From a virus: a DNA stretch of 33,534 nucleotides. Position numbers and translations under genes: made by a program. Under the pieces are notes generated by a model. The model had not been told where the DNA came from, made no database searches, and saw nothing but the letters and a program-made list of their open reading frames with translations. Where the stretch lies: positions 1-33,534 of the IMG/VR virus record IMGVR_UViG_3300010370_000011. One strand, given 5' to 3'. Every line of letters starts with the position of its first letter. Within the stretch, counting starts at the first letter, position 1. Shown here piece after piece: positions 8,713 through 33,534 of the stretch.

Positions 8713-9163
8713 GAAACGAATCCAGCAGATGGAGCTGGAGAATCTCAGACAGAAACATCCATCTGTTCCAGAGCATTGCCTGGCTAAGTCAGCATGGAGT
8801 GATAAGACAGCTAACGGACTCACAAAGATGGTCACATCGTTCTTGTCATTCTCAGGACATCAAGCAGAGCGAATCAATACCATGGGTACTTTCCGAGGAC
8901 CAAAGAAATACACTAACCTTGATGGAGTCACCAGATCAGTAGGCAGAGGAACCTATACAAAAACAACAGGCACCAAAGGATCCGCAGATATTTCAGCTAC
9001 CATCAACGGCAGATCAGTTAAGATTGAAATCAAGATAAATGATAGACAGTCTGAAGATCAGAAACGATACCAGGAATCTATTGAGCGAGCTGGAGGGGTT
9101 TACAAAATTGTTCGAAACTTTGATGAATTTATTGAGTGGTACGATTCCTTTGTATTAAAATAA
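8696..9163 (+). CDS. VRR-NUC-like nuclease (PD-(D/E)XK fold)
   Basis: A protein of 155 residues. The second half carries the restriction-nuclease core: G-T-K-G-S-A-D-I with D98, then V-K-I-E-I-K with E111 and K113, followed by S-E-D-Q-K-R-Y with Q122, and G-G-V-Y near residue 135. This order matches VRR-NUC nucleases, which can act on branched DNA. Located between the helicase and the annealing protein, it is a good candidate for resolving replication or recombination intermediates. The N-terminal 60 residues are not recognised. Confidence 0.75.
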   Translation: MNTQNKKRIQQMELENLRQKHPSVPEHCLAKSAWSDKTANGLTKMVTSFLSFSGHQAERINTMGTFRGPKKYTNLDGVTRSVGRGTYTKTTGTKGSADISATINGRSVKIEIKINDRQSEDQKRYQESIERAGGVYKIVRNFDEFIEWYDSFVLK

Positions 9164-9176
9164 TTATTTACATTTG
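9149..9176 (+). promoter_or_regulatory. Promoter of the recombination operon
   Basis: TTTG at 9149-9152 and TACATTTG at 9169-9176, spaced by 16 bases, resemble the Bacteroidota promoter. The first element lies within the end of the nuclease gene. The ATG at 9199 follows 22 bases later. Confidence 0.6.
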
Positions 9177-9198
9177 TATAAATTAAAACACAAATAAA

Positions 9199-9738
9199 AT
9201 GGCAACAAGAAAAACACAAGAAGAGGAGATTTCATCTCCAGCATCTCTGTACATGAAGCTATGGAGAGCAAAGCGTGAGATCGGTAAGGTCCACAAGAAC
9301 GCAAAGAATCCACATTTCAAACAGAACTACGCTGATCTAAATGCGGTCCTGGATGCATGTGAGGGTATTCTACTGGAGCATGGACTGATGATCCTGCAAC
9401 CAATCAAGGAGGATGTAGTGATAACTCAGATAGTAGATATTGATTCCGGGGAATGTATCGAGTCTTTCATCAGACTCCCACAGCTACAGAATCCACAGCA
9501 GCTCGGTTCTGCGATAAGCTACTACAGAAGGTATACATTGATCAGCTGCCTCGCATTAGCTTCTACAGATGACGATGGAGCCGAAGCTGGCAAAGCTATT
9601 CCAAAGCAGATCGAGAAGCCAGGACTCGATGCTGAGAGATTCGCAGGAGCATTGAAGAGCATTGCTGATGGAAAGTACACGGCAGAGCAATTGAAAAAGA
9701 ACTATACACTAACACTTGAGCAACTATCTGAGCTATGA
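9199..9738 (+). CDS. ERF-family single-strand annealing protein
   Basis: A protein of 179 residues of the ERF recombinase type. Visible signatures are K-N-P-H-F-K-Q-N-Y-A-D-L-N near residues 36-50, the core G-S-A-I-S-Y-Y-R-R-Y-T-L at about 103-115, and the acidic D-D-D-G-A-E-A-G directly after. ERF proteins anneal complementary single strands during phage recombination. With the exonuclease at 9887 it forms a typical two-component recombination system. Its own promoter lies just upstream, and its stop is coupled by ATGA to a small membrane gene. Confidence 0.9.
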   Translation: MATRKTQEEEISSPASLYMKLWRAKREIGKVHKNAKNPHFKQNYADLNAVLDACEGILLEHGLMILQPIKEDVVITQIVDIDSGECIESFIRLPQLQNPQQLGSAISYYRRYTLISCLALASTDDDGAEAGKAIPKQIEKPGLDAERFAGALKSIADGKYTAEQLKKNYTLTLEQLSEL

Positions 9739-9890
9739 AAAAACTACTGACATACCTTTTGATCTGCCTGATATTGGCAGCAATCGGAGGAATATTCTAT
9801 CTCATTCATTCATATCTTGGATCATGGCCTGTGGCTATCATCATCTTGATGTCGATGGCATTTCTAATCCTTAAAAATATCGAGTCATGA
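9735..9890 (+). CDS. Small two-helix membrane protein, 51 aa
   Basis: This ATG-started gene overlaps both neighbours by ATGA, a tight coupling that supports it as real. The protein has membrane segments at about residues 4-25 and 31-47. It has the same length and layout as the 51-residue product of 4496-4651, including a Y-L-G-S-W turn between the helices. It lies between annealing protein and exonuclease, but nothing links its function to recombination. Confidence 0.65.
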   Translation: MKKLLTYLLICLILAAIGGIFYLIHSYLGSWPVAIIILMSMAFLILKNIES

Positions 9891-10519
9891 AATGGAGACC
9901 TTCAAGCATCGGCAAGCTGATGACCAACGCAAGATCAAAGAATGAGGTTCTTTCTGAGACTGCAAAGAGCTATATCAAGAGCCATGCGAAACAGAATTTT
10001 TATGGCTACAATCTTGAGCTGAACAACAAGTACATCAACAAGGGAATCCTCCAGGAACATGACTCAATTGATCTGATCAATGCCGTTCGATTCACGGACT
10101 ACTCAAAGCATATCGGAAGGGTAGAGACTGAGCTGATGTCAGGTGAATGTGATATCCTCCTAGATGACATGATCATCGATGTGAAAACATCGTGGTCCCT
10201 GGAGACTTTCCCAGCAACCAGAGATGATGCTGATGATAGAGATTACGAATGGCAAGGAAGAGCCTACATGCATCTCTATGATCGTGATGTATTTGAGGTA
10301 ATCCATTGCATGGTGTCAACAGATCCAAAGGATGAGTTTAATCTACTCACTCCATGGGATAACCTATCTGTTCACCGGGTAGATCATATTGATCCTGCAA
10401 AGCGTATTACTGTATGCAGATACGAGAGAGATCTTGACCTGGAGCTTGACATGCTAACTAAGCTACGATATGCTTCTGAGTTTTATGCTCAAGTGATGAA
10501 TGAATTAGTAAATAAATAA
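9887..10519 (+). CDS. YqaJ/lambda-exonuclease-like nuclease
   Basis: A protein of 210 residues. It starts with K-W-R-P-S-S-I-G-K, typical of YqaJ-type exonucleases, has the nuclease core G-E-C-D-I-L-L at residues 86-92 and I-I-D-V-K-T-S at 96-102 (D89, D98 and K100 as catalytic candidates), and a W-Q-G-R-A-Y-M-H-L helix at about 138-146. The enzyme would digest one strand of DNA ends so that the ERF protein can anneal the exposed strand. It is the last gene before the AT-rich cassette cluster at 10518-11430. Confidence 0.8.
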   Translation: MKWRPSSIGKLMTNARSKNEVLSETAKSYIKSHAKQNFYGYNLELNNKYINKGILQEHDSIDLINAVRFTDYSKHIGRVETELMSGECDILLDDMIIDVKTSWSLETFPATRDDADDRDYEWQGRAYMHLYDRDVFEVIHCMVSTDPKDEFNLLTPWDNLSVHRVDHIDPAKRITVCRYERDLDLELDMLTKLRYASEFYAQVMNELVNK

Positions 10520-10540
10520 CCTTTAAATCAGAGTAAGATG
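10518..10540 (+). repeat. Repeated intercistronic leader, copy 3
   Basis: AACCTTTAAATCAGAGTAAG followed by ATG, identical to copy 1 although 5.5 kb away. Here the upstream gene ends with its own TAA just before, so the copy is almost wholly noncoding. Confidence 0.9.
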
Positions 10541-10732
10541 AATTTTAAAATCAAATTTATTAAAGGTTCTTGGGTTAATGATGATGTAGATTTACTTCCT
10601 ACAATTAAATTAAGAACAGGCAGTAAAGCAAATGAAGAACTTAAAGTTATTGCAACGAGTATAGCTTTATGTTGGTTAAAATGGGGAATTATGTTCTCTG
10701 TTGGTAAAATAGAAACTTTAAAATCAGAGTAA
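10538..10732 (+). CDS. Hypothetical protein, 64 aa
   Basis: The start is the ATG of leader copy 3. The 64-residue product begins with M-N-F-K-I-K-F-I-K and has a hydrophobic C-terminal half with I-A-L-C-W-L-K-W-G. No family recognised. Base composition is strongly AT-rich compared with the exonuclease gene just upstream, a sign of separate origin. The last codons and stop (S-E-stop) are formed by leader copy 4. Confidence 0.65.
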   Translation: MNFKIKFIKGSWVNDDVDLLPTIKLRTGSKANEELKVIATSIALCWLKWGIMFSVGKIETLKSE

Positions 10733-12506: not shown

Positions 12507-12691
12507 AACAGCTTTTGAAGAAGCTCTTCAAGAAGCGAGACATCCGAGAGATGACAGAGCAAGACATAAAGATGGCCATGATCGGAGCTATTGTACTACA
12601 GGAGCTTCATGACGATAGAGGTCTACGCAGAAAGCTCAGAGGCACACAGCTAGAGCAGAAACTAAAATACATAATACGCAATGATTTCTGA
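12491..12691 (+). CDS. Hypothetical basic protein, 66 aa
   Basis: Starts 16 bases before the end of the membrane gene. It has a strongly basic N-terminus (K-Q-L-L-K-K-L-F-K-K-R) and a following helix with T-E-Q-D-I-K-M-A-M-I-G-A-I. The amphipathic start could bind nucleic acid or membrane. No family recognised. The end overlaps the next gene by 11 bases. Confidence 0.6.
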   Translation: MGTKIKQLLKKLFKKRDIREMTEQDIKMAMIGAIVLQELHDDRGLRRKLRGTQLEQKLKYIIRNDF

Positions 12692-13034
12692 TGAATTAAA
12701 AACACAGGTGCAGAGGTTCCAAAGAACAAGATCCTTTGCCCTTAATGAGAACCTTAAGGAGGAGCTGGCAGATTGGTTCCGCCTTACAAGGCAGGCAACT
12801 CTCAATGTGAGATGTGGCACATGCCTACGCAATGCTATGAATGATCTGGCAAAGTCTATCCAGGAGGAATCCAACAAGGAGATCAAACCAGCGAAGATTC
12901 AGTTTATCGGTGTGAAACAGTACAACTATGATGGCATGAGCTACAACGAGCTGAAGCGTGAGGCCAAGAAGAAAGGTATCAAGATGGAGCAGGCACCAAC
13001 AAAGCAGGAACTATTAGAAGCCCTCAAGAAATGA
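12681..13034 (+). CDS. Hypothetical protein with HeH/SAP-like C-terminus
   Basis: A protein of 117 residues. The middle has V-R-C-G-T-C-L-R-N-A-M, a Cys pair in a helix context. Residues 86-117 (M-S-Y-N-E-L-K-R-E-A-K-K-K-G then T-K-Q-E-L-L-E-A-L-K) match the short two-helix HeH/SAP-like motif that binds DNA. Proteins with this pairing are common in Bacteroidota phages just before late genes. Its stop overlaps the start of the first glycosyltransferase gene (ATGA). Confidence 0.65.
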   Translation: MISDELKTQVQRFQRTRSFALNENLKEELADWFRLTRQATLNVRCGTCLRNAMNDLAKSIQEESNKEIKPAKIQFIGVKQYNYDGMSYNELKREAKKKGIKMEQAPTKQELLEALKK

Positions 13035-13753
13035 TAGTAGCACCCATTCCAATATACGGAAGGCTTCCCCTGGTGAAGCTCACAATCCAAAGGCTACAGG
13101 ACCAAGGAGCGCATGTCATCGGTATAGGCCATGAGAAGGAAGCTAAGGATCTGGTCCTATCGATGGGAGCTGAGTGGGTAGAACACAGCAATGATCCTTT
13201 GGGTGCCAAGTGGAATGCCGGATTCAAGGCTGCAAGGAAACACAATCCAAGCGGTGTGATATTCATGGGATCATCAGACTGGTGTTCCGATAACTACATC
13301 GAGACATGTGAACTACTGCTTGATGAGTACGATCTACTCGGAAAGCTCGGATGTCACTTCATCGATGTGGCTGATGATATCAGACTCGTCAACTGGAATG
13401 GATACGGAACAGGACCAAGATCATATGAGCCGATAGGTATCGGAAGAGTGCTATCAGATAGGTTCCTCAACAAACTCAACTGGCAGCCATTCGATCAGAG
13501 ACTGTCATCCGGACTCGATTGGTCCATGTGGCTGAAAGCTATCCATGCTGATGCAGCTGTCGGTATCCTGGAAGATCCTGATTTGATACTGATGTCAATA
13601 TCCACAAGCGCATGGAATAACAAGCACAAGTTCAATGATCATTGGACAGGTCCCCTCAAGAGTGATCGTATCACAGACTTATCAACAATCTACAAAACAT
13701 TCCCACAAATCACAGAGCTACATGAAACAATGCTGGATATCACAAAGCCTTGA
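13031..13753 (+). CDS. Glycosyltransferase-like protein, GT-A type
   Basis: A protein of 240 residues. The first 100 residues follow the GT-A nucleotide-sugar fold of family 2-like enzymes: an N-terminal strand I-V-A-P-I-P, a helix, a second strand H-V-I-G-I-G, then G-A-K-W-N-A-G-F-K-A and V-I-F-M-G-S-S-D-W at about 76-84, where D-x-D-like metal contact usually lies. S-S-D-W replaces a canonical D-x-D, so activity is not certain. A later D-Q-R-L-S-S-G-L-D-W could carry the catalytic base. First of four sugar-related genes in tight overlap. Confidence 0.65.
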   Translation: MIVAPIPIYGRLPLVKLTIQRLQDQGAHVIGIGHEKEAKDLVLSMGAEWVEHSNDPLGAKWNAGFKAARKHNPSGVIFMGSSDWCSDNYIETCELLLDEYDLLGKLGCHFIDVADDIRLVNWNGYGTGPRSYEPIGIGRVLSDRFLNKLNWQPFDQRLSSGLDWSMWLKAIHADAAVGILEDPDLILMSISTSAWNNKHKFNDHWTGPLKSDRITDLSTIYKTFPQITELHETMLDITKP

Positions 13754-14447
13754 GGGACTCGAGGATGACATCATGCGCAAGTACAATCTCACAGAGCGCA
13801 CTGATCTCAATGAGCCATGCGGATTCTTTGGCATGTACAGAGAGGAGGATCTCCAGGCACTGATCGATCACAAAGGTGATTGCTTTGTCGTATGGATGGG
13901 ATCAGATGCCAAGGATCTACCAGGTGAATGGATAGCAGAACTAAGCAAGCACATGCACATAGCTATCAGCATCCAGGTACAGAACTCCCTTGCCAAGAGA
14001 TCCATCAAATCATTCTACCTTCCCCTCAATGCTACCATCGCAGAGGACTGGCCTTGCACTCCCAAAGGTGACAAGATCTACTGGTATTACAACGAAGGCT
14101 GCAAGGAGTTCTATGGATCCGAACTGATAGAACAGATAGAGCAGCGTATAAACATTCCTATCATCAAGGCAGACTATCAGACCTTCACCAGGGATCAGCT
14201 ATACGATGTATACTCTCAATGCTTTATCAACCTGAGACTCACTCCTCATGATGGATGCCCGAATACCAATCTACAGATGGGACTCATGGGCCGAAAGTCA
14301 ATATACAACGGAGACCTTCCTCATTCAATCAGATGGGAGGGCATCGATGATATCTGCGAGTCAATACTCAATGAATACAACCAGAGACACGTATCAGATT
14401 CTGTCTCAAAAGATTTCTATAACTTTGTTAAAATATCAACCAAATGA
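13722..14447 (+). CDS. Glycosyltransferase-like protein, GT-B type
   Basis: I chose the ATG at 13722 (241 residues), which overlaps the previous gene by 32 bases; the ATG at 13773 is a shorter alternative, and the longer frame from 13635 is a shadow. The protein has a strand pattern V-V-W-M-G-S-D-A-K at about residues 60-68 and, near the C-terminus, G-C-P-N-T-N-L-Q-M-G-L-M-G-R, which resembles the nucleotide-sugar binding segment of GT-B (family 4-like) enzymes. It is shorter than most family members, about half a typical enzyme. Likely works with the adjacent GT-A-like protein. Confidence 0.6.
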   Translation: MKQCWISQSLEGLEDDIMRKYNLTERTDLNEPCGFFGMYREEDLQALIDHKGDCFVVWMGSDAKDLPGEWIAELSKHMHIAISIQVQNSLAKRSIKSFYLPLNATIAEDWPCTPKGDKIYWYYNEGCKEFYGSELIEQIEQRINIPIIKADYQTFTRDQLYDVYSQCFINLRLTPHDGCPNTNLQMGLMGRKSIYNGDLPHSIRWEGIDDICESILNEYNQRHVSDSVSKDFYNFVKISTK

Positions 14448-15514
14448 AAGAATGCCCGAGATGCCTCTTCACTGAGGACTTTGCAACCATAGGACACAAG
14501 CAGTGCGAATATTGCGACATGCATGATACCATGCAGAAACAAGCGGATCCCACTAAGCTGTTCCCACTAATCAATCAAATCAGATCATCCGCTGATACAG
14601 ATGCCAAATACGATTGCATCATGGGGATATCCGGAGGCCTTGATTCATCGACACTGCTATACACTGCGGTACGCTACTGGGGACTCAAGCCGCTTGTCAT
14701 TCACTTCGACAACCATTGGAATGCTCCAGAGGCTGAGCATAACATGAAGCAGCTCATCAAGAAGCTCAACGTTGATGCCATCACATTCATGGTAAACAAG
14801 CAGGAGTACGATACGCTGAATGAGGCATTCCTATTCGCTGGACTTCCTGATGCTGATATCCCCAATGATATCGCCATGACCAAGCTCATGTACCAGACTG
14901 CTGACATGTACAAGATCAAGTACATTCTCAATGGACATGACTTCCGTACTGAAGGATCTACACCAAAGCCATGGACTTACATGGATGCTAAGTACATCAG
15001 ATCAGTGTACAAGGCATATGCTCACAAGGATCTCAAGAACTATCCACTATTCACATTCAAGGACCAGCTATACTATGCCTGGAAGGGAATCAAGAACGTG
15101 AGACCTTTCCACTATGGATTCGACAGAGAAACCATGGAAACTGAGATGAAGAAACTGATCTCATGGCAGGACTACGGAGGCAAGCACTGCGAGAACGTAT
15201 ACACTGAATTCGTAGGCAGTTACTTGCTACCAAATAAATTCAACATCGACAAACGCATCGTTTACCTTTCTGCTCAAGTTAGATCAGGAAAGCTGACCAA
15301 GCAACAGGCCAGAGACCTATTCAATGACAAGCCAGAGTTCGATCTGAACAAGCTCGCTGATAAACAGGATAAGTTCAATCAGCTCGTGAACCTTCGCAAA
15401 GGTGAGAGATCATCCTATGCTCGATACAACTTCAAGGCATATAGACCATTCATATGGATACTTGCCAAGATGAAAGTGGTGCCCTATACATTCTACGTCA
15501 AATACTGTAAGTGA
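14444..15514 (+). CDS. N-acetyl sugar amidotransferase (PseA/WbpG-like)
   Basis: A protein of 356 residues. The N-terminus has two Cys pairs, C-P-R-C (4-7) and C-E-Y-C (21-24). The ATP-pyrophosphatase loop S-G-G-L-D-S-S lies at 63-69, followed by H-F-D-N-H-W-N, and Y-I-L-N-G-H-D-F at about 164. This order is that of amidotransferases such as WbpG and PseA that put an amidino or amino group on an N-acetylated sugar in O-antigen or flagellin glycan synthesis. The family usually gets ammonia from HisH/HisF-like partners; none is encoded here, so host partners or free ammonia would be needed. Overlaps the GT-B gene by ATGA. Confidence 0.8.
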   Translation: MKECPRCLFTEDFATIGHKQCEYCDMHDTMQKQADPTKLFPLINQIRSSADTDAKYDCIMGISGGLDSSTLLYTAVRYWGLKPLVIHFDNHWNAPEAEHNMKQLIKKLNVDAITFMVNKQEYDTLNEAFLFAGLPDADIPNDIAMTKLMYQTADMYKIKYILNGHDFRTEGSTPKPWTYMDAKYIRSVYKAYAHKDLKNYPLFTFKDQLYYAWKGIKNVRPFHYGFDRETMETEMKKLISWQDYGGKHCENVYTEFVGSYLLPNKFNIDKRIVYLSAQVRSGKLTKQQARDLFNDKPEFDLNKLADKQDKFNQLVNLRKGERSSYARYNFKAYRPFIWILAKMKVVPYTFYVKYCK

Positions 15515-15966
15515 TGCCAATACCTAAACCAAGACCAGGAGAGAATCAGAATGAGTTCGTTACCAGATGCATGGGTGATGAGAAGATGAAGGATGAATAT
15601 CCATCGACACAAAGATATCCGGTATGCAAGGCATCATGGGACAGATCTCGCAATGAGTTCCAGGATACGCACAATGACTACCCCGATGCTGTGGTCAACA
15701 ATGCCAAGAGAGGAATTGAACTCAATGACAAGATCGGCAACAAATGCGCCACTCAAGTAGGCAAGGTCAGAGCGCAGCAACTCGCCAACAGAGAGAAGAT
15801 ATCTATCGAGACCATCAAACGCATGTACAGTTATCTGTCCCGTGCTGAGGTCTACTATGACAATGGAACACCAGAGGACTGCGGATATATCTCATATCTT
15901 CTGTGGGGTGGTAAGGCTGCCAAGGACTGGGCGCAGTCAAAGATCAATGATCACAACAATGGCTAG
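15514..15966 (+). CDS. Head-morphogenesis-associated domain protein
   Basis: I chose the ATG at 15514 (TGATG with the previous stop; a GTG at 15511 is also possible), giving 150 residues. The N-terminal part, K-P-R-P-G-E-N-Q-N-E-F-V-T-R-C-M followed by Y-P and V-C-K-A-S-W, and the C-terminal part with V-G-K-V-R-A-Q-Q-L-A and T-I-K-R-M-Y-S-Y-L, are segments I associate with prohead-protease or minor-head proteins of phages. It is unusual to find them as a separate protein among sugar genes, far from the capsid genes. Exact role unknown. Confidence 0.55.
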   Translation: MPIPKPRPGENQNEFVTRCMGDEKMKDEYPSTQRYPVCKASWDRSRNEFQDTHNDYPDAVVNNAKRGIELNDKIGNKCATQVGKVRAQQLANREKISIETIKRMYSYLSRAEVYYDNGTPEDCGYISYLLWGGKAAKDWAQSKINDHNNG

Positions 15967-16252
15967 GATATCATTTGATTACGATGGTACTATCTCAACG
16001 GCCAAAGGTACCGAGATGGCTATTCAGTTTGTGGAGTCTGGTGATACAGTCTACATCATTTCCGCAAGGGATAGAAAAACACCAATGTTCGCGAAGGCCG
16101 AACAGGTAGGAATACCATTCAGCCGGGTATATGCCACAGGATCAAATGAGGCTAAAATTGAAAAAGTGAAACAGCTCAAGATACAACGTCACTATGACAA
16201 TAATCCAGACGTAGTAAAGGAGCTTCCTGGTATAGGTAAACTTTTTAAATAA
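15959..16252 (+). CDS. HAD-like phosphatase, 97 aa
   Basis: I chose the ATG at 15959, because the HAD motif begins five residues later; the longer frame from 15842 is not supported. Motif I is F-D-Y-D-G-T with D7 as nucleophile and D9 as acid/base. Motif II is I-I-S-A-R at 33-37, and K66 may be the motif III Lys. Y-D-N-N-P-D (79-84) takes the place of motif IV. The protein is a minimal HAD fold without a cap domain. It may remove phosphate from a sugar or nucleotide; its place at the end of the sugar genes suggests a sugar phosphate, but that is inference. Confidence 0.7.
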   Translation: MARISFDYDGTISTAKGTEMAIQFVESGDTVYIISARDRKTPMFAKAEQVGIPFSRVYATGSNEAKIEKVKQLKIQRHYDNNPDVVKELPGIGKLFK

Positions 16253-16327: not shown

Positions 16328-16729
16328 ATGGCCTATTCAGATGACTTCATAAAACACCTGGATGAGTTAGCTCACATCTACATCACTGAGTGCTTGTCTC
16401 ACCAGAAAGAAACACTATCCAATAAAGGAGAGGTTATCATGGTAGCGGATAGACACATCCCTACAATCGATTATTTTCTGAGGATATGGATACCGATCAT
16501 CAGGAATGAAAAAACAATACACAGGGACACTTACTATACATGGTTAAATTCTGAGGACAAACTCAAAACCGACACTATTAAAAAAATAGACAACATGTTT
16601 AAGTGCCTGGCAAAGGACATTGTAGCTAATGAAGGCAAGGGAATATTCTACGCAAAGAATGCTCTCGGGATGCATGATCGTCAGCAAGTCGAAACACGAA
16701 ATGTTGACAAATTCGATTTTGAGCAGTAA
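16328..16729 (+). CDS. terS: Terminase small subunit-like protein
   Basis: A protein of 133 residues, directly upstream of the large terminase gene. It has an H-R-D-T-Y-Y-T-W-L-N segment followed by D-T-I-K-K-I-D-N-M-F and a conserved-looking I-V-A-N-E-G-K-G-I-F-Y-A-K-N-A-L-G-M. These are features of small-terminase-like DNA-recognition proteins in Bacteroidota phages, with an N-terminal helix-turn-helix. It would recognise the phage packaging site and hand the DNA to the large subunit. The name rests on position and pattern. Confidence 0.7.
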   Translation: MAYSDDFIKHLDELAHIYITECLSHQKETLSNKGEVIMVADRHIPTIDYFLRIWIPIIRNEKTIHRDTYYTWLNSEDKLKTDTIKKIDNMFKCLAKDIVANEGKGIFYAKNALGMHDRQQVETRNVDKFDFEQ

Positions 16730-24854: not shown

Positions 24855-27089
24855 ATGGCAAACAAAGAAGCTGTATTTTCTCTAAGGGTTGATACCGGTA
24901 ACTCGGTACAGGATGTTCAGTCTTTTGACAAGGCAGTCAACAGTCTCAATAAGGATCTCAATGCTGTCGATAAAACAGCGAGCAGCCTTGATGGCATCGA
25001 TGACTTTACTCAGCGGATGAATGAGCTATCTGCAAGGATAGAAGCTGGAGGTCTGACAATGCGAGACATGACTCAAGTCATGAAGCAATACCAGACCATC
25101 GCTGCTCAAGCTGGCATGGAGTCACCTGTAGGACAGCAGGCATTGCAAGCTGCTGCACAGCTCAAGGATCAGATCAGTGATTTGAAGGCTGCTACTACTG
25201 CACTATCCTCAGATTTTGTGGCCCTTGACACTACACTCGCAGGAGTGGAGACAGGAGCTGCTGTATTCCAGGGATTCGAATCAACTATTGCTTTGACAGG
25301 CGTAGAGAGTGAAGCTCTTGTGCAGACAATGGTTAAGCTACAAGCTGTACAAGGTGCGGTGAATGCTGTTCAAACTATTGCGAACAATCTTAATTCAGAT
25401 GCCATCCTGGGGATTCAATTGAGAACAGCATATGAGAAAGCATATACTGCTGTTGTTGGCCAATCAACTGGAGCATTAAAGGTATTTAAGATAGCACTTG
25501 CAGCTACTGGTATAGGTGCTGTGATCGCATTGGTAGGCACATTAATAGCAAACTTTGACAGCCTCAAGGATAGAATCTTTGGTACAAGCGAAGCTACCAG
25601 AGCAATGGCCGCCACAATGGATGCTTATAAACAAGGAGCACAGGATGCTATTGTGCAGACTACTGAGGTAGGCAATGCATTTGAACTTGCAAGAAAGGGA
25701 GTTATATCTAAGGAAGAAGCATTATACACATACAATGAAACTCTCGGGGATGCATTCGGAAGGACAACGGATCTGAATGAAGCTGAGAATATCTTCATAA
25801 AGAAAAAAGAGGCATTTGTTCAAGCAGCTGCACTCAGGGCACAAGCTACAGCACTCTTCGCTAAGGCGGCTGAAGAACAAGTAAAAGCATTGACTGCATC
25901 ACAAGAGGATCAGACTACATTCCTGGATAAAACATCGACAGCATTTAAAACATATTTTTTCGGTATTGAGGAGGGAGCTAAGAATCAGTTGAATGCTCAG
26001 AAGAAAAGAATCAAAGAACAGGAAACTCTGTATAATAAAAATGCGGAGATGATTCTAAATGTAGGTAAGGCTAAAATGTTGGAAGCTGAAACTACAGAGA
26101 ATATGAATGGAATCATCTCAGAGAATGAAAAAAAGACTCAAGATGATATCGCAGCTAAAAGGAAAGAAGCAGCAGAGAAAGCCAAGAAGCTACGTGAGCA
26201 ACAGCTTGAGGATGCAAAAAAAGCCTGGGAAAAAGAGAAGGAACTATCATTGAAATATGCAGAGGATCTCGCTAAAATAATTGAGGATAGAGTAAAGAAA
26301 GAAGATGAGATCATTCGGCAGTCTGCAATCACAAAGGCTGAGCTTATGGAGCGTGAAGCTGCAAGAATAGACAAGCTGCGCCAAGATGAATTCAATGACG
26401 CCATAGGATATTTGGAAGCAGACCTGATAAACAATGAGAACAACTTCAATGCAAAACGTGATCTACTTGAAATGCAGAGACTGGAGGAGCTTTCAAATAA
26501 GGAGCTAACTGAAGGTGAAATCACAGCAATTGAGGCCAAGTATGCTAAGCAAAGATCAGATTTAAATAAGCAGGAGCAGGACTTAAAAATTCAAGCTGTA
26601 CAAAATACTCTGACAACCATCAGTAATCTCGCTCAGTTATTTGCTGGAGGTAGTGAGAAGCAACAGCGTAAAGCATTCCAAATACAAAAAGCTGTAAGCA
26701 TTGCACAGGCTACAATAGATACTTACAAAGCAGCTCAGGCGGCATATGCATCATTGGCTGGAGTTCCGGTAGTAGGTCCTGCCCTTGGTGCTGCTGCTGC
26801 TGCCGCAGCGGTTAGTGCTGGTTTATTGAATGTAAAAAATATAGCATCACAGAAATTTGAAGGAGGAGGTTCTTCTGGATCAACAGCATCTGCTGGAGCT
26901 GTATCTGCTGGAGCAACATCAGCTCAACTCGGTGGAGCTGGTACCAATGCGAATCTGAATACACAGCAAACCAATACAGCGGATCTGATAGCTCAGAGCA
27001 ATGAGGGGACTCCAGTCTACGTTCTTGAGTCTGACATCACAGGCACTCAGAACAAGGTGGCTATGCAGAATAAACTTAGCGTGTGGTGA
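24855..27089 (+). CDS. Tape-measure protein
   Basis: A protein of 744 residues that would set tail length. It is helical throughout, with a hydrophobic stretch at about residues 211-234 (A-A-T-G-I-G-A-V-I-A-L-V-G) and a second, Ala-rich one near 640-660. In between (about 420-620) lies a long Lys/Glu/Ala-rich coiled-coil. The C-terminus is Gly/Ser/Thr-rich. At about 0.15 nm per residue, a tail near 110 nm would be expected (inference from the usual tape-measure relation). It overlaps the antisense gene by 14 bases at the 3' end. Confidence 0.85.
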   Translation: MANKEAVFSLRVDTGNSVQDVQSFDKAVNSLNKDLNAVDKTASSLDGIDDFTQRMNELSARIEAGGLTMRDMTQVMKQYQTIAAQAGMESPVGQQALQAAAQLKDQISDLKAATTALSSDFVALDTTLAGVETGAAVFQGFESTIALTGVESEALVQTMVKLQAVQGAVNAVQTIANNLNSDAILGIQLRTAYEKAYTAVVGQSTGALKVFKIALAATGIGAVIALVGTLIANFDSLKDRIFGTSEATRAMAATMDAYKQGAQDAIVQTTEVGNAFELARKGVISKEEALYTYNETLGDAFGRTTDLNEAENIFIKKKEAFVQAAALRAQATALFAKAAEEQVKALTASQEDQTTFLDKTSTAFKTYFFGIEEGAKNQLNAQKKRIKEQETLYNKNAEMILNVGKAKMLEAETTENMNGIISENEKKTQDDIAAKRKEAAEKAKKLREQQLEDAKKAWEKEKELSLKYAEDLAKIIEDRVKKEDEIIRQSAITKAELMEREAARIDKLRQDEFNDAIGYLEADLINNENNFNAKRDLLEMQRLEELSNKELTEGEITAIEAKYAKQRSDLNKQEQDLKIQAVQNTLTTISNLAQLFAGGSEKQQRKAFQIQKAVSIAQATIDTYKAAQAAYASLAGVPVVGPALGAAAAAAAVSAGLLNVKNIASQKFEGGGSSGSTASAGAVSAGATSAQLGGAGTNANLNTQQTNTADLIAQSNEGTPVYVLESDITGTQNKVAMQNKLSVW

Positions 27090-27717
27090 TGAACTTCCAT
27101 GTATCCTTGTTTGCCATGAACTGATCGGATATGCTGAAGCAACCATAGAGGTCAAGGAATTCCTTGGCCTTTTTTTTGTCCTTGGCAATCTTGATATTTT
27201 CACCTGGTGAATGTGGTACCTGGTAATAATTCAGATACATGCTCTTGATGAAATGATTATGACCTGACCATGTGATGGAATCGAATAACTCAATGAGCTT
27301 GTTGCTGTTCATCATGACTGGAGCATGGCATTCAAAGTTAATCGTAGTGCATTCCATAGCTTTGAGCGCATCCATAGTGTTCTGCATTGCTTCCTGGTAG
27401 GTAGGTGCATGTCTGTCATTGATCAGCATTGGCCCAGATGATAGGACTCTGTTAGGATCGAACTTGGGACCAAGAAAGAAATCATCATTCATGTAGATGA
27501 AATCTCCTCCGATCAGCGAGGCAAAGGTAAGGATCTTGTGAGTGACATCACATCCCCGGATGGATGATCTGCTGCGAGGTTCCAAATTGATGGTGCCAGG
27601 GACATGATCTCCGATAACGTAGATCTCTGCATCGGGGTAAACATTCAAAGCCCATCGGATGGACTCACTGATGCACTGATCATCACGCAGTCTTTTGTAA
27701 GGGTATACGAATCTCAT
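27076..27717 (-). CDS. Stealth-like sugar-phosphate transferase
   Basis: The only gene on the minus strand, 213 residues. It shows core features of the Stealth family (hexose-1-phosphoryltransferases of surface polysaccharides): an N-terminal S-E-S-I-R-W-A-L-N with I-Y-V-I-G-D, F-I-Y-M-N-D-D-F-F at about 73-81, and E-C-H-A-P at 129-133. It lacks the N-terminal W-V-D-G type motif and is about half the usual length, so it may be a minimal or divergent member. It sits between tape measure and head genes like a moron, with a TAATTTTG promoter element four bases from its ATG. Confidence 0.65.
   Translation of the reverse strand: MRFVYPYKRLRDDQCISESIRWALNVYPDAEIYVIGDHVPGTINLEPRSRSSIRGCDVTHKILTFASLIGGDFIYMNDDFFLGPKFDPNRVLSSGPMLINDRHAPTYQEAMQNTMDALKAMECTTINFECHAPVMMNSNKLIELFDSITWSGHNHFIKSMYLNYYQVPHSPGENIKIAKDKKKAKEFLDLYGCFSISDQFMANKDTWKFITTR
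27150..27177 (+). terminator. Terminator inside the antisense gene
   Basis: On the plus strand GGTCAAGG (27150-27157) pairs with CCTTGGCC (27162-27169, one G-T pair) around AATT, followed by eight T (27170-27177). It lies 60 bases after the tape-measure stop. On the minus strand the same bases code for the K-K-K-A-K-E-F-L segment of the Stealth-like protein. Confidence 0.8.
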
Positions 27718-33088: not shown

Positions 33089-33534
33089 ATGAACTACCTA
33101 CTATCCGTTGAGAATTTAAAGAAGCTCGGTCTCATCCATGCGAATACCGACACAAAGATCCTTTCTGTTTGCATCAAGCGATCACAGGATATGCATCTAC
33201 AGCCAGCACTCGGAACACCTTTGTACAAGGCTTTACTCACTCGTGTTGAAACAAGTACATGGACTGCTGACTATCTTACGCTGATGAATGATTATGTGGT
33301 GCCTTGCTTGGTAGCATTTGTGGACTATCGTGCTGCGGCCATGCTCAATGAGAAGCTAACTAATAAAGGAGTGGGCCGACAGGATGACGAGACTATGACT
33401 CCGAATACTGACAGCGATACAAACCATCTGAGAGATATGCTCAGAAAAGATGCGTATTTTTACAAGGAGAGATTGATCGGATTCTTGAAAGATGATAACG
33501 GAGTAAAGTATCCGGAATACATCATCTGTTGCGA
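33089..33534 (+). CDS. Head-tail connector-like protein (DUF6712-like), 5' part
   Basis: Starts with ATG one base after the portal stop codon and is still open at the window end. Joined to bases 1-193 across the terminal repeat it gives a protein of about 171 residues. The N-terminal pattern (a leader with L-K-K-L, then N-T-D-T-K-I-L, then an A-L-G-T-P-L-Y-K-A-L block) matches a protein family that follows the portal in many Bacteroidota phages and is annotated DUF6712. Family and position suggest a gp6-like adaptor that joins portal to tail. The function is inferred from gene order and pattern memory, not from a search. Confidence 0.7.
   Translation, partial: MNYLLSVENLKKLGLIHANTDTKILSVCIKRSQDMHLQPALGTPLYKALLTRVETSTWTADYLTLMNDYVVPCLVAFVDYRAAAMLNEKLTNKGVGRQDDETMTPNTDSDTNHLRDMLRKDAYFYKERLIGFLKDDNGVKYPEYIICC
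33412..33534. repeat. Terminal direct repeat, right copy
   Basis: Exact copy of bases 1-123, inside the connector gene. Because the repeat is inside a coding sequence and not beside the terminase genes, an assembly overlap of a circular or permuted genome is more likely than a functional packaging end. Confidence 0.95.

Follow-up and report, generated by a model that had tools for sequence, protein, structure and literature searches.

Results

Organization of the locus

The window analyzed here is the whole of IMG/VR record IMGVR_UViG_3300010370_000011 (33,534 bases). Its two ends share an identical 123-base sequence, which marks the window as a complete phage genome of ~33.4 kb. Three adjacent genes at positions 13031-15514 form a cassette encoding two glycosyltransferases (GT-A and GT-B) and an N-acetyl sugar amidotransferase (NASAT). 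The cassette site is flanked by a gene for a HeH-like protein and by the gene before TerL.

1-123 and 33412-33534: terminal repeat, exact 123-bp identity.
12681-13034, + strand: upstream boundary gene with a C-terminal HeH/Ish1/SAP-like domain (Ish1, E = 3e-4), outside the cassette.
13031-13753, + strand: GT-A, GT2-like glycosyltransferase by fold, 240 aa, invariant cassette core gene.
13722-14447, + strand: GT-B, minimal GT4-like glycosyltransferase by fold, 241 aa, occupying an exchangeable slot.
14444-15514, + strand: NASAT of the WbuX/WbpG/PseA family (TIGR03573), 356 aa, invariant core gene.
15514-15966, + strand: prohead-protease-associated domain protein (phrog_2859, E = 1e-11), "head gene", neighbor of the cassette.
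15959-16252, + strand: small HAD-like protein, 97 aa (phrog_8630 nucleotidase, E = 2e-4), neighbor of the cassette.
16328-16729, + strand: gene before TerL, conserved and bounding the cassette site downstream; a probable small terminase, judged from its position alone.
27076-27717, - strand: Stealth-like putative sugar(-phosphate) transferase, 213 aa (phrog_7999, E = 4e-10; weak Stealth_CR2).

An earlier sequence-only reading of this DNA had proposed GT-A-like and GT-B-like genes and an amidotransferase with an SGGLDSS motif and two cysteine pairs, and all three are present at the positions listed. It had also described mostly ATGA-type junctions. This holds for the HeH-like/GT-A and GT-B/NASAT junctions, but GT-A and GT-B overlap by 32 nt, NASAT and the head gene meet at TGATG, and the head and HAD genes overlap by 8 nt.

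NASAT family membership

The phage NASAT aligns over its whole length with TIGR03573 (WbuX) (E = 4e-51, model positions 1-328 of 344). Its score of 174 bits falls under the NCBIfam curated cutoff of 203.2 for this family, and the nearest bacterial homologues score 257-289 bits. On these scores the protein counts as a homologue and as an outlier within the NASAT superfamily group, but not as a certified WbuX. Identity to the bacterial homologues is 27-32% over the alignment and up to 37% locally. The NASAT profile also matches LpNASAT (8wex; E = 0.0065), a crystal structure of the family in which the zinc tetracysteine site was shown (PMC10607449).

The PP-loop motif SGGxDS occurs in 21 of 21 phage NASATs, and the zinc cysteines C4, C7, C21 and C24 are invariant, bacterial homologues included. 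The motif CxxCxn[GN]xCxxC keeps its four cysteines, and the [GN] position is K, H, S or E in all 21 proteins. Alignment with the bacterial homologues shows that the YGxKHxE and DKR motifs are kept. The phage C-terminus (IWILAK.KVVPYTFYVKYC) is strongly conserved in the phages and absent from the bacterial homologues; this stretch may serve for docking or for contact with a membrane.

Pfam scans of the main ORFs found no HisH/HisF ammonia-supplying partners in the phage. HisH/HisF lie beside the L150 locus and were not seen beside L149 and others, so these partners are not universal in the NASAT family; several bacterial homologues are likewise without visible partners. The bacterial homologues sit in polysaccharide clusters.

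Glycosyltransferase folds

The sequence-only reading had called for a structure-based search of four proteins. For GT-A and GT-B, AlphaFold models provided this check and show the two folds it had proposed. The GT-A model, built from 20 relatives, has a pLDDT of 91.4. Its best PDB matches are AvpGT, a Leptospira GT (6p61), WrtF, RmlT and TarS (E down to 3.5e-9); nucleotidyltransferases appear further down. In BFVD the closest entry is a GTA-type protein from an uncultured phage. A Che8 GT is among the distant fold matches. No named GT family profile in Pfam, PHROG or NCBIfam recognized GT-A, and it is by model fold alone that the protein is placed among the GT2-like glycosyltransferases.

The start of GT-B was set to ATG 13722, judged from relatives. 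Its model (pLDDT 83.9) has a small GT-B fold and matches the GT4 enzymes BA1558, SdgB, BshA, TarM and SenB in the PDB (best E = 5e-5), with moderate similarity (TM about 0.45-0.63).

An exchangeable slot between GT-A and NASAT

The position between GT-A and NASAT is a slot that holds one of two GT-B types (21-25% identical to each other), a larger GT4-like protein of 303 aa, a SAM methyltransferase of 179 aa (Methyltransf_23, E = 6e-14), or nothing. The window carries GT-B type 1. Slot content was mapped onto a NASAT tree of 56 distinct NASAT/slot combinations. At least 14 changes are required, compared with a minimum of 4 for five states and a mean of 25.7 after shuffling, which indicates that the slot is inherited over the short term and yet repeatedly exchanged. 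Different slot enzymes occur beside NASATs that are only about 1% apart.

The head and HAD genes belong with the prohead protease

The sequence-only reading had placed a head-associated gene inside the cassette and counted the HAD-like phosphatase as a cassette gene. The head gene begins at ATG 15514 and follows the cassette. In L130 (19216-20427) the head and HAD domains are fused to an XkdF-like prohead protease in one 403-aa frame. In L295-L299 the protease reading frame takes in the head domain, and in L290-L292 it takes in the HAD domain. Where the head domain is joined to the protease it is usually missing beside NASAT, and many NASAT genes and cassettes have no head or HAD gene alongside. 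The fusions and these absences rule out both genes as cassette members. From the reading frames, the two are judged to be separable C-terminal domains of the prohead protease, and the cassette is thus limited to three genes. Because both domains belong with the protease, their adjacency is no pointer to glycosylated heads, and the earlier argument for virion glycosylation from a head gene within the cassette falls. The two domains alternate between fusion to the protease and free genes beside the terminase.

Distribution and selection

Searches with NASAT, GT-A and GT-B gave zero matches in 50,697 phage-isolate records, and a bacterial NASAT query found no match in the phage records. When a mixed phage-bacterial NASAT alignment was used, the same phage family was alone among the best 80 matches, so other phages may carry NASATs as well. 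No report of a phage NASAT was found in the papers searched. These results agree with the earlier remark that no described system with this exact gene set is known. In IMG/VR, 169 stretches match NASAT and 163 match GT-A. Wherever a locus is long enough to include both genes, the two occur together; the exceptions are contigs ending within about 800 bases. GT-A had no homologue in 395 Bacteroidota genomes at E = 1e-5, in a search run without a positive control.

The cassette is missing from a related lineage (TerL 78-80%; L128 and L130-L143, where covered). There the HeH-like gene is followed directly by the gene before TerL, with a gap of 72-203 bases. In an unrooted TerL tree this empty-site lineage is one clade beside the clade of the window. 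L127 carries a different 249-aa GT-like gene (8838-9587), alone in the cassette site. L003, a near-identical relative, has a 383-aa ORF (9580-10731) between the head gene and TerL, and the usual gene before TerL was not detected there.

Median dN/dS was 0.060 for NASAT, 0.117 for GT-A, 0.135 for GT-B and 0.172 for the slot methyltransferase, compared with 0.070 for TerL. These ratios indicate that the cassette genes are under purifying selection. With more than 160 relatives and medians of 0.06-0.17, the cassette is more than a chance arrangement.

The phage family

The cassette carriers are an uncultured freshwater phage family. The portal is 24% identical to those of Nonlabens phages P12024S/L, and the only other matches among phage isolates are distant ones to TerL; neither the major capsid protein (MCP) nor the Stealth-like protein has a relative in the phage-isolate records. 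The MCP gave one match (23%) in the 395 Bacteroidota genomes. Shine-Dalgarno-like motifs are scarce (1 of 38 gene starts). A candidate host in the Bacteroidota fits both this scarcity and the portal match. The scanned proteins of the complete genome included no integrase.

Discussion

The sequence-only reading had interpreted the locus as a cassette for sugar attachment and amidination. This stands for the three genes, on the strength of the two folds, the family membership of NASAT, the invariant pairing and purifying selection, and it does not extend to the excluded head and HAD genes. That the cassette is an amidino-glycan modification module is probable, with appreciable doubt. Against it stand the NASAT score below the WbuX cutoff, the missing [GN], the absence of HisH/HisF and the moderate GT-B matches.

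In the predicted pathway, GT-A would transfer a sugar from the host nucleotide-sugar pool to an acceptor. By analogy with its family, for which chemistry converting ATP to AMP and PPi has been proposed (PMC10607449), NASAT would activate the N-acetyl oxygen of a 2-acetamido-type sugar at the expense of ATP (to AMP + PPi), and ammonia would replace the activated oxygen to give a positively charged acetamidino group. The ammonia would come from the pool or from a host glutaminase, since no HisH/HisF was found in the phage. The slot enzyme, where there is one, would extend, cap or methylate the glycan, and slot swapping would make that glycan vary between close relatives. Such swapping suggests that the phages diversify a glycan on either their own particles or the host.

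The likelier acceptor is a virion protein, which would be modified in the cytoplasm ahead of assembly; a lipid-linked precursor of a host surface glycan is less likely. The chance that the virion is the acceptor is put at slightly under even. No transmembrane segment was found in the cassette proteins (maximum 19-residue hydropathy of 1.36 or less), and with no integrase seen among the scanned proteins, a virion acceptor fits better than serotype conversion. The cassette also holds no membrane GT, flippase, polymerase or acyltransferase. In the mycobacteriophages Che8, Corndog and Myrna, it is established that phage GTs glycosylate the virion (PMC12363180). The fuller proposal, that this widespread family decorates its own particles with acetamidino-sugar glycans and changes them through slot-enzyme swaps, as antigenic or charge variation of the virion coat, is put forward tentatively.

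Modification of the host surface is the main alternative. The cassette would then alter the charge or structure of lipid-linked O-antigen, capsule or S-layer glycan precursors and keep the same or competing phages from adsorbing again. Known NASATs serve surface-glycan pathways (PMC10607449), the bacterial homologues sit in polysaccharide clusters, and slot swapping resembles serotype diversification. The acetamidino group can also decide phage recognition, because on flagella the acetamidino-modified form is the only pseudaminic acid to which a Campylobacter phage protein binds (PMC4690887). A cassette devoid of a membrane protein, flippase or polymerase argues the other way, and a phage with no integrase seen would have little time for surface turnover; this alternative is regarded as rather unlikely. 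It is improbable that NASAT is a repurposed PP-loop protein acting on DNA, RNA or another small molecule whose product the GTs decorate, in the manner of hypermodified phage DNA. Phage GTs can modify DNA, the cassette adjoins DNA genes, and the PP-loop ATPases QueC, TilS and NadE match NASAT weakly, but TIGR03573 (E = 4e-51) is ahead of every other PP-loop family by over 40 orders of magnitude. DNA hypermodification was rejected because no supporting gene, whether for thymidylate synthase, a hydroxymethylase or 7-deazaguanine, turned up among the scanned proteins. A passenger origin, in which host genes with no role in infection hitchhike next to the terminase, has very little probability. The related lineage does manage without the cassette, but purifying selection largely refutes this explanation: NASAT has a dN/dS as low as that of TerL and the frames are open throughout. 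The lack of a GT-A relative in the Bacteroidota genomes, from the search without a positive control, also counts against passenger genes.

Phage glycan modification is known as a general kind of system; the enzyme content and the exchangeable slot are new. WbpG (P. aeruginosa O5), WbuX (E. coli O145), PseA (Campylobacter) and LpNASAT (8WEX) share whole-length homology with the phage NASAT, and the PP-loop SGGxDS, the four zinc cysteines, YGxKHxE and DKR are common to all. Unlike this bacterial family, the phage enzyme is phage-borne, falls below the curated cutoff, has no [GN] before the second cysteine pair, carries a conserved phage-specific C-terminus and comes from a genome in which no HisH/HisF was found. 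The serotype-conversion modules GtrABC and Oac are accessory sugar genes that vary between relatives, as the cassette does, but they are membrane systems of temperate phages, whereas the cassette lacks transmembrane segments and no integrase was seen. In Che8, Corndog and Myrna the GTs that glycosylate the virion are phage-encoded, as here (PMC12363180 and its ref. 18). The sections of PMC12363180 cited describe no amidotransferase or exchangeable slot in those phages; the hosts differ, and the acceptor of the present cassette is predicted only.

Combined amidination and methylation has a precedent, because Campylobacter synthesizes acetamidino as well as N-methylacetimidoyl sugars (PMC3958885). 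Its N-methylacetimidoyl legionaminic acid on flagellin joins the two modifications as NASAT and a methyltransferase in the slot would allow. The Campylobacter system is a bacterial flagellin pathway, whereas the cassette is phage-borne and its methylation is predicted. Bacterial O-antigens and flagellins are known to contain acetamidino sugars, on which at least one phage protein relies. A two-gene core, a swappable third enzyme, an empty site in relatives and strong purifying selection together give a natural variant series for testing phage-made glycans.

The Stealth-like gene lies outside the cassette, within the structural genes on the opposite strand. Its product gave no meaningful match to PDB sequences. 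The MNDDFF motif is invariant in 8 relatives, cassette-minus genomes included, and the gene is a candidate for a putative second glycan enzyme present family-wide.
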